Origin: Infirmifilum lucidum
Lineage (GTDB): Archaea > Thermoproteota > Thermoprotei > Thermofilales > Thermofilaceae
Direction: 5' to 3'
NCBI RefSeq assembly: GCF_014876775.1
Contig: NZ_CP062310.1
Location: forward strand, 1,031,699-1,095,698
DNA: 64,000 nt
Positions 17,632 through 20,579 of this stretch are shown here, in pieces; positions within the stretch are counted from its first letter, which is position 1; each line of letters starts with the position of its first letter. A program made the translations under genes and the position numbers. A model generated the notes under the pieces. It was given only the letters and a program-made list of their open reading frames with translations. It searched no databases and was not told where the DNA came from.

Positions 17632-17985
17632 ATGAAGGGAAAAAAAGTGCTGATTGTACTGCTTGCAGCTAACGTTGCAATGCTCCTGGCGTCAATATCT
17701 GTCCTAGCTTCCGCGGCAACAAGAATTCTCCAGCCAGCTTCACCAGCAGCAGAAGCACGCGCACTGGATCTACCAGGCGCCATAGCTCTACTAGCGGGTG
17801 CCATAGCCGTTGCTGGGTCTACCCTGGCCTCTGGTATAGCCTTGAGAGGAGTTGCCACCGCGGGGTTTGCCGCTGCCGCCGAGAAACCGGAGCTAACAAC
17901 GTGGATGCTTATAATGGGCGGCTTAGCCGAGGGTATAGCGGTCTACGGCCTACTCCTAGCCATACTAATACTAGGCAGGATCTAA
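17632..17985 (+). CDS. atpK: A-type ATP synthase rotor proteolipid (subunit K/c)
   Basis: Rotor-ring proteolipid of 117 residues. An N-terminal hydrophobic segment (residues 5-30, cleavable or not) is followed by a linker with Pro/Ala, then two membrane helices. The ion-binding glutamate is in GGLAEGIAVYGLL of the last helix; the first hairpin helix is rich in Gly/Ala (GAIAVAGSTLASGIALRG). It follows atpI and ends in an A/T-rich region (18000-18020). Confidence 0.92.
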   Translation: MKGKKVLIVLLAANVAMLLASISVLASAATRILQPASPAAEARALDLPGAIALLAGAIAVAGSTLASGIALRGVATAGFAAAAEKPELTTWMLIMGGLAEGIAVYGLLLAILILGRI

Positions 17986-18082
17986 CAGACACAATAAAAA
18001 GTAAATTTAATACTTAATTACTCTTTGTCCTGCAGCACAGCATCGTTCTCTCTCCAACGGGCAAGGGTTCAGGAAATGAGAA

Positions 18083-18334
18083 CTAGACAATATTTACCTC
18101 TGATCCCAAGGCAATGCCCGGGAGCTGCCTCCTAAAGTACGCGATGAACCGTGTACCCCTATTCCCATGCTTTCTCACTATTTTCCCGATGAACTTCTTC
18201 CCCTTAGGATGCACCCAGACAACCTTCCTTCCTATCAACTGGTGCAGGTTCACGGGGTTCTCCACCTCTATTATTACTTGCCTCGGATAGTACCGCTTTC
18301 TCCCAAGCCTGAACGAGAGTATCCAACCCCTCAC
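18083..18334 (-). CDS. rpl35ae: 50S ribosomal protein eL33 (L35Ae)
   Basis: Archaeal/eukaryotic-type large-subunit protein of 83 residues. It is recognised by the beta-barrel sequence with KVVWVHPKGKKFIGKIVRKHG and the conserved C-terminal GTRFIAYFRRQLPGIALGS. Very basic. GTG start at 18334. It stands alone, 100 bp from the cysteine-rich gene on the same strand. Confidence 0.93.
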   Translation of the reverse strand: MRGWILSFRLGRKRYYPRQVIIEVENPVNLHQLIGRKVVWVHPKGKKFIGKIVRKHGNRGTRFIAYFRRQLPGIALGSEVNIV

Positions 18335-18433
18335 CGGGCCTCACCGTAAACCAAGTATTACTTGTTATAGAGGAAAAATTTTACGCCAGGAATAAGGGTC
18401 AGAAAAGAGAATCCTGAGGTTGGAGGCCTAATG

Positions 18434-18658
18434 CTAAACCGTTGCCTCGCATATGTCGTGGCATCTTGCCTCAATAGCGTTGCATATACGGTTACAGGCG
18501 TCTGCGCTCCTGCTACAGCACTCTTCACATGCCTCAGCGCATGCGGCCTGCTCCTGAGCTTCGCAGTTCTCGATGCACTCAGAGGTCAAGTTGTTACAAC
18601 GGGCGTTGCACTCTTCAACGATCTCATCACATATTATAGAGCACTCTTCCCTGTTCAT
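18434..18658 (-). CDS. Cysteine-ladder helical miniprotein (74 aa, 14 Cys)
   Basis: Not a family I can name. The 14 cysteines are at residues 6, 10, 17, 21, 28, 32, 40, 44, 47, 48, 55, 59, 66 and 70: CX3C pairs repeated every 11 residues on two acidic, helix-favouring segments. The pattern is symmetric about residue 38, so a helical hairpin would put CX3C 6/10 opposite 66/70, 17/21 opposite 55/59, and 28/32 opposite 44/48. This resembles the twin-CX3C fold of small Tims or alpha-hairpinins extended to three rungs, or a metal-loading helix of the Csp/DUF326 sort. No signal peptide. ATG 18658 follows GGTAGGGATA, with a CATAAAAG box upstream. Confidence 0.7.
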   Translation of the reverse strand: MNREECSIICDEIVEECNARCNNLTSECIENCEAQEQAACAEACEECCSRSADACNRICNAIEARCHDICEATV

Positions 18659-18697
18659 TATCCCTACCGTGAAATCGTGACTTTTATGTTTTCCATG

Positions 18698-18994
18698 CTA
18701 GATTATCTCGAGCTCTGTCACGAAGTACTTATTTCCCAATTGTTTCATTGCGAGTGAGAGCCACGCTTTGACCTCTGAGCCTGCTTGCTTGTCGAGGATA
18801 ATCAGTGCCCTCTTGCCGCCCAAGGGATCATCCTTCACCTTAACAGTCGGTGATAGTCTGGCTAGCTCCTTCTCGATTGTCTTCTTGTAGAGAGAGTAGG
18901 GGAAGTTGAAGTAGACGTTCTTTTCGTCCTCCACAACGAGTATCTCCTCCTCCATCAAAGCCCAGTTGGGAATGCCGTCTTCCACAGCCAACAT
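18698..18994 (-). CDS. Conserved hypothetical protein (98 aa)
   Basis: I do not recognise this protein. It is a soluble mixed alpha/beta sequence with a Glu-rich N-terminus and the segment VYFNFPYSLYKKTIEKELARL, and later GGKRALIILDKQAGSEVKAWLSLAMKQ. Starts are possible at ATG 18994 and ATG 18955 (MEEEILVVEDEK). A TTTTTTAAATATT box on the minus strand (about 19008-19020) fits either. It is 39 bp upstream of the cysteine-ladder gene and may share its transcript. Confidence 0.7.
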   Translation of the reverse strand: MLAVEDGIPNWALMEEEILVVEDEKNVYFNFPYSLYKKTIEKELARLSPTVKVKDDPLGGKRALIILDKQAGSEVKAWLSLAMKQLGNKYFVTELEII

Positions 18995-19823: not shown

Positions 19824-20579
19824 ATGCCGGTTGAATACGATGAAGAATTAGTGAGCGAGCTCACCAGGATGTTTGCTGGGCTCAAGAACCCAGTCATCAT
19901 AAGGTACTTTAGAGACCCTGAGGCAGAGTGCATGTACTGTGACGACACAGAGCAGATCCTAGAGTTAGTGAATAAGACATCTAACGGGAAGGTGAAGATT
20001 GAGAAGTATTCGAGCAGAGACCCCGAAGCCAGGAAATATAACATCCCCATGTTCCCCGCAATACTAATTCACGGGGTTGACGAATGGAACATAAGGTATT
20101 TCGGCATACCCGCAGGCTACGAGTTCGGGGCTTTTGTGGAGGACATACTGGACGCCTCGACAGGTAAACTCGAGATAGATCCTAAGCTAGCTGAACTGTT
20201 AAATAAATACGTCGTTAGTCCGACGAGAATAATGATATTCGTCACCCCCACGTGCCCCTACTGCCCCCTAGCCGTGAGGGCTTCGCATAGGTTCGCAATG
20301 GTCAACAAGAACATATACGGTGACATGATAGAAGCCCTAGAGTTCAGCGACCTAGCCGACATGTACGGGGTTTACGCTGTGCCGAAGAACGTTATACAGG
20401 TCAACGGCGAAGACAGGGTAGAGTTTGAGGGAGCGGCTCCAGACCCCTACTTTGTTGCGAAAATACTGGAGGCCTACAGTATAGAACTACCGCAAGAGCT
20501 CCGGGAGGCCATAGCTGGAATCGGGATTGAAGAGACGGTGTCAGAGGTTGAGGAACACGAACACCACCATCACCATTAG
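19824..20579 (+). CDS. Protein disulfide oxidoreductase (two thioredoxin folds) with natural His-rich tail
   Basis: Cytosolic PDO/glutaredoxin-like protein with two thioredoxin-fold units. The first active site is CMYC (residues 36-39) and the second is CPYC (144-147). In crenarchaea this family makes and isomerises intracellular disulfides. The cis-proline loops appear as PMFPAIL and AVPKNVIQ. Residues 245-251 read HEHHHHH at the very end, encoded by the genome (caccaccatcaccat then the stop). This may bind metal. No signal peptide; 251 residues. Confidence 0.92.
   Translation: MPVEYDEELVSELTRMFAGLKNPVIIRYFRDPEAECMYCDDTEQILELVNKTSNGKVKIEKYSSRDPEARKYNIPMFPAILIHGVDEWNIRYFGIPAGYEFGAFVEDILDASTGKLEIDPKLAELLNKYVVSPTRIMIFVTPTCPYCPLAVRASHRFAMVNKNIYGDMIEALEFSDLADMYGVYAVPKNVIQVNGEDRVEFEGAAPDPYFVAKILEAYSIELPQELREAIAGIGIEETVSEVEEHEHHHHH

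Follow-up and report, generated by a model that had tools for sequence, protein, structure and literature searches.

Which structure accounts for a protein of 74 residues whose cysteines lie in mirror-image order, and do those cysteines staple two helices together or serve some other chemistry? The question is raised by a gene at 18434..18658 (-) of the window, the 64,000-nucleotide stretch analysed here, which is part of a complete 1.63-Mb archaeal genome (G000). The gene runs from an ATG start codon to a TAG stop codon, and its translation, MNREECSIICDEIVEECNARCNNLTSECIENCEAQEQAACAEACEECCSRSADACNRICNAIEARCHDICEATV, is a small, acidic protein of 8 kDa. An earlier note on this DNA had described 14 cysteines in 74 residues with CX3C recurring every 11 residues, and translation together with pattern matching confirmed this. 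The cysteines occupy positions 6, 10, 17, 21, 28, 32, 40, 44, 47, 48, 55, 59, 66 and 70, and all but two of them make up two copies of the pattern CX3CX6CX3CX6CX3C (C6-C32 and C44-C70). The first copy (18563..18643 (-), residues 6-32) falls in a predicted helix 1 (residues 3-34) and the second (18449..18529 (-), residues 44-70) in a predicted helix 2 (residues 38-73). Between them lies a turn (18530..18562 (-), residues 33-43) with a predicted break at residues 35-37; it measures 11 aa in the window protein and 10 aa in the homologue of G004. The mirror symmetry about residue 38 that the note had claimed is exact: the nested pairs 6+70, 10+66, 17+59, 21+55, 28+48 and 32+44 each sum to 76. C40, in the turn, and C47 fall outside the ladder; the former is present in four of the five homologues and the latter only in the window species. 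Apart from these two copies, CX3CX6CX3CX6CX3C has no match in the window, and 100 dinucleotide shuffles gave none. When 14 cysteines were placed at random over 74 positions 300,000 times, seven CX3C motifs together with six mirror-symmetric pairs arose just once. No signal peptide was seen at the N-terminus (MNREEC...), which supports the cytosolic location proposed earlier.

Conservation points to a real gene under purifying selection

Of the seven genomes that represent the genus, five (G000, G001, G004, G005 and G006) encode the Cys-ladder protein, giving a set of five sequences of which two are nearly identical. All 12 ladder cysteines, six in each copy of the pattern, are invariant in the alignment of these five species at 37-55% identity, so the conservation of the Cys spacing in relatives, which had been set as a test of the proposal, held. 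The other invariant positions are V14, E16, E30 and E45. The protein is 55-59% identical to the G001 and G006 copies, far below the 82-88% of its neighbours valS, PDO and rpl35ae, which indicates that it has evolved fast except at its cysteines. Between G000 and G001 the differences at codon positions 1, 2 and 3 number 20, 20 and 46 in the Cys frame, and pS (0.87) greatly exceeds pN (0.28), which shows purifying selection on this frame.

A TATA-like box, CATAAAAG, at 18681..18688 (-) precedes the start codon by 23-30 nt, and the four relatives carry TATAAAAG or TATATA-type boxes at a similar distance from a plausible start codon. This distance would fit an archaeal mRNA with no leader or almost none. 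A 108-aa ORF overlaps the gene on the plus strand, and the earlier note had named conservation of the opposite-strand frame as an outcome that would refute its proposal; aligned codon by codon, the antisense frame runs open through the G000 copy but meets three stops in each of G001 and G006. Taken together, the homologues within the genus, the invariant cysteines, the concentration of changes at third positions, the broken antisense frame and the upstream TATA-like boxes show that the Cys-ladder ORF is a real gene, and make it very improbable that the ORF is non-coding or that the true gene lies in the plus-strand frame.

Genomic neighbourhood of the ladder gene

The ladder gene directly precedes rpl35ae (ribosomal protein L35Ae, Pfam PF01247; 18083..18334 (-)) in G000, G001, G006 and G004, despite differing surroundings. 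The nearly complete genome G005 (L169) gave no match to rpl35ae; there the ladder gene and hypF still adjoin. In the window (17632-18994) the ladder gene and rpl35ae adjoin the gene for the A-type ATPase K subunit, and a 98-aa protein without a Pfam match, conserved in 14 of the 17 genomes of the order, is encoded at 18698-18994 (-).

A protein disulfide oxidoreductase-like (PDO) gene stands at 19824..20579 (+), with CMYC and CPYC motifs, a match to Pfam Thioredoxin_3 and a weak match to glutaredoxin. Its start is 1.17 kb from the ladder gene, as the note had reported (1.2 kb). As support for a shared function this proximity fails, since in four relatives, whose PDO is 76-88% identical, the gene lies 4-5 kb from the ladder gene with valS and other genes in between. 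The order in G001 and G006 is PDO-valS-ASCH-UxaE-like, then the ladder gene and rpl35ae, then hypF. A local rearrangement split the PDO-valS-ASCH-UxaE-like cluster in the window's genome, and the nearness of PDO in the window is due to that rearrangement alone. We therefore rejected PDO linkage as functional evidence, and regard the PDO-like protein as a possible oxidant of the ladder, not as an operon partner. No metal transport or regulator gene was found near the ladder gene in the window or in the relatives' neighbourhoods, and its surroundings likewise lack a dedicated reductase and any gene of sulfur metabolism.

Database searches find ladder homologues in one genus

Outside the genus, no ladder homologue was found among 398 genomes of the phylum, and phages and plasmids yielded none. 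The window protein gave no match in Pfam at E <= 10 and none in NCBIfam, PHROGs or PADLOC, and nothing in Rfam overlaps its gene. The PDB, searched by sequence and by fold, returned chance-level or generic two-helix matches only, with no small Tim or Csp chain among the sequence matches. A viral fold library gave the same picture, and neither fold search had anything at E below 0.001. The note had known of no three-rung form, and none emerged from these database, pattern and fold searches.

Searching the 398 genomes by Cys spacing, as the note had proposed, gave matches of the ladder type in this genus only. In the viral contigs, no family member was present among the matches listed. Two contig matches, from Sinimarinibacterium and Abyssibacter, were rejected, the matched stretches being without a CX3C ladder. 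The other full-spacing matches listed from the 398 genomes and the viral contigs were Gly/Cys repeat proteins or low-complexity frames, with at least 16 cysteines per stretch, compared to 12-14 in the ladder family. Among the matches listed from viral contigs (L094:5447-6988, L110:11456-13093, L285:5589-6260, L277:9847-10665 and others) are long proteins rich in Gly and Cys, distinct from the hairpin family, in which (CX3CX2)n-like repeats bring the number of cysteines to as many as 111. The archaeal genomes G347 (L022) and G281 (L023), from one other family of the phylum, have similar Cys repeats in open frames that are 461 and 598 aa long. By these searches, the Cys-ladder protein appears to be restricted to one genus and to belong to no named family.

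Predicted hairpin and rung geometry

AlphaFold2, run on the single sequence, predicted a two-helix hairpin with helices at residues 3-34 and 38-73 (mean pLDDT 90.8, pTM 0.73 for the best of five models, which ranged in pLDDT from 67.9 to 90.8). The two antiparallel helices and short turn are those of a cysteine-stapled alpha-hairpin. On a hendecad wheel, every ladder cysteine falls at positions a and e, and the Cys stripe is flanked by hydrophobic residues, which occupy h and i in helix 1 and d and h in helix 2. The modelled hairpin would have one core face edged by hydrophobic positions, in the manner of a hendecad core.

Rung geometry was examined with two ideal alpha helices moved as rigid bodies, for ten Cys spacings. 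A spacing of 11 was the best of the ten, bringing all six pairs to CB-CB distances of 3.7-3.9 A at an axis separation of 8.6 A and a crossing angle of -7 degrees; in this rigid-helix model, spacings of 7 and 18 also fit well, 14 is poor, and 8, 9, 10, 12, 13 and 15 fail. With explicit sulfurs, six S-S bonds could be made simultaneously at 2.04-2.22 A, with angles of 93-107 degrees and chi3 of 77-91 degrees, so that each of the symmetric pairs is able to bond across the helices. The best solution for three tetrahedral Cys4 metal sites was strained, with S-M-S angles of 80-127 degrees and half of the chi1 angles eclipsed. For ideal rigid helices, and with Cys4 as the single type of metal site modelled, the geometry would favour disulfides. 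The AlphaFold2 prediction and the rigid-helix model thus both lend support to the earlier proposal of a helical hairpin in which each CX3C rung faces another.

Cysteine parity in the host proteome

PDO has been tied to disulfide-rich cytosols of thermophiles (PMC3177088). The note had placed the organism in a group that uses intracellular disulfides, and we compared even and odd Cys counts in proteins of at least 120 aa without CXXC, sampling 400 to 464 kb per genome (samples L394-L453) with crude gene calls (longest non-overlapping ORFs) applied in the same way to all genomes. The control was G042, which we take to be Pyrobaculum aerophilum, a classic disulfide-rich archaeon. The even/odd ratio was 0.57 in G000 and 0.48 in G004, with no even excess among the sampled proteins. 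In the control it was 1.07 for the whole sample and 1.31 for proteins shorter than 300 aa (counts of 39, 38, 13, 31 and 2 for one to five cysteines), and both genomes differed from it (Fisher P 0.001 for G000 and 8e-5 for G004). Thus these Thermofilaceae genomes keep PDO, one mark of a disulfide-rich cytosol, yet are without the other, the even-Cys excess that is strong in the Pyrobaculum-like G042. The organism is not visibly disulfide-rich, and for it the note's claim about its group was not supported. It does not make a general practice of forming disulfides in the cytosol; single proteins can still be oxidised.

Disulfides, metal or thiol buffering

We favour, with a probability of about 0.5, a cytosolic three-rung alpha-hairpin with six putative disulfides. 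Its two helices would be covalently zipped by nested bonds 6-70, 10-66, 17-59, 21-55, 28-48 and 32-44, two in each of three rungs, and the 11-residue spacing, equal to three helical turns, would keep the cysteines on one face of each helix while leaving the helices almost straight. The bonds may be formed by the cell's protein disulfide oxidoreductase. We consider that such a ladder best explains the mirror symmetry and the 11-residue pitch, since in a ladder all pairs must be mirror-symmetric and in a metal store they need not be. Since the cysteines are held by selection and most of the surface is not, the protein would most likely serve as a redox-active or disulfide-buffering protein, or as a very heat-stable scaffold, rather than as an enzyme. 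More tentatively, the protein may be a genus-specific, cytosolic, alpha-helical cystine ladder, with six interhelical disulfides at hendecad pitch, in which the ladder itself is the function, as the host cell otherwise does not favour disulfides.

Against six disulfides stand the parity result, C40 and C47, which would be unpaired thiols, and the combination of invariant cysteines with a variable surface, which is also the pattern of a metal-binding protein. For these reasons a reduced metal-thiolate ladder remains the strongest competitor, possible if less probable. Its CX3C pairs would bind soft metal ions (Cu(I), Zn(II) or Fe), either spaced along one hairpin or, if two chains join as a four-helix bundle, inside the dimer, and the protein would store or buffer metal as metallothioneins or Csps do. 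Precedents are the helix-borne CXXXC motifs of Csp3, which are Cu(I) sites with cysteines kept reduced (PMC5171941), and reduced small Tims, which bind one Zn via twin CX3C motifs (PMC3759932). A proteome lacking a disulfide-rich signature is consistent with reduced thiols, as are homologues that retain their cysteines on a variable surface of net charge -10 to -14. The single His, in contrast, is missing from two homologues, no metal gene lies nearby, and the modelled two-helix geometry would strain Cys4 sites while placing facing thiols at bonding distance. The G004 homologue scores 18.0 bits over 14 residues on the DUF326 repeat, which is associated with Csps, against a cut-off of 20.4; the window protein, three homologues and the window's genome give no DUF326 match, and the window protein resembles no PDB Csp chain.

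It is unlikely that the protein is instead a reversible thiol or sulfur buffer, in which PDO or thioredoxin would help to turn dithiols into disulfides (or persulfides) and back in a cytosol rich in sulfur. The modelled geometry would allow easy oxidation, a PDO-like protein is present and the cysteines themselves are the conserved part, but the gene has no dedicated reductase or sulfur-metabolism partner linked to it, and no computed result tells such a buffer from a static staple.

Comparison with known stapled hairpins

The proposed six-disulfide hairpin resembles the small Tims (Tim9/Tim10) in its helix-loop-helix form, in CX3C facing CX3C to give an inner and an outer disulfide, and in a short inner loop, here of 11 residues. 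Small Tims, however, are eukaryotic chaperones of the mitochondrial intermembrane space with one rung and two disulfides; their twin CX3C places a single motif in each helix, against three ladder CX3C per helix in all five homologues, and no sequence similarity to them was found. The theta-defensin cyclic cystine ladder shares stacked disulfide rungs across a hairpin, but is a beta-hairpin, cyclic, with three bonds, secreted and found in primates. Symmetric nested disulfides across two antiparallel helices, putative in the ladder protein, also occur in p8MTCP1/CHCH proteins and plant alpha-hairpinins. The former has a Cys-9-Cys-10-Cys-9-Cys arrangement (PMC4596865) and the latter have four cysteines (PMC11591084); each has two nested bonds, whereas the archaeal, cytosolic ladder protein has six nested pairs at an 11-residue pitch, and alpha-hairpinins are secreted antimicrobial peptides. 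Csp3 is likewise cytosolic and helical, with many CXXXC motifs lining its core, but is a four-helix-bundle monomer with 18-19 cysteines and no disulfides (PMC5171941), unlike the two-helix hairpin predicted for the ladder monomer. In the literature, no alpha-hairpin was found in which nested disulfides of the CX3C type number more than two.

On its predicted fold, the Cys-ladder protein adds to the stapled alpha-hairpins a new form, with putative disulfides, that is restricted to one genus. If disulfide-bonded, it would give the design of stapled helices a minimal template from nature, and would allow ordered multi-bond formation by PDO to be tested cleanly inside a cell. Should it be a metal binder, archaea would have in it a two-helix counterpart to Csp or metallothionein.
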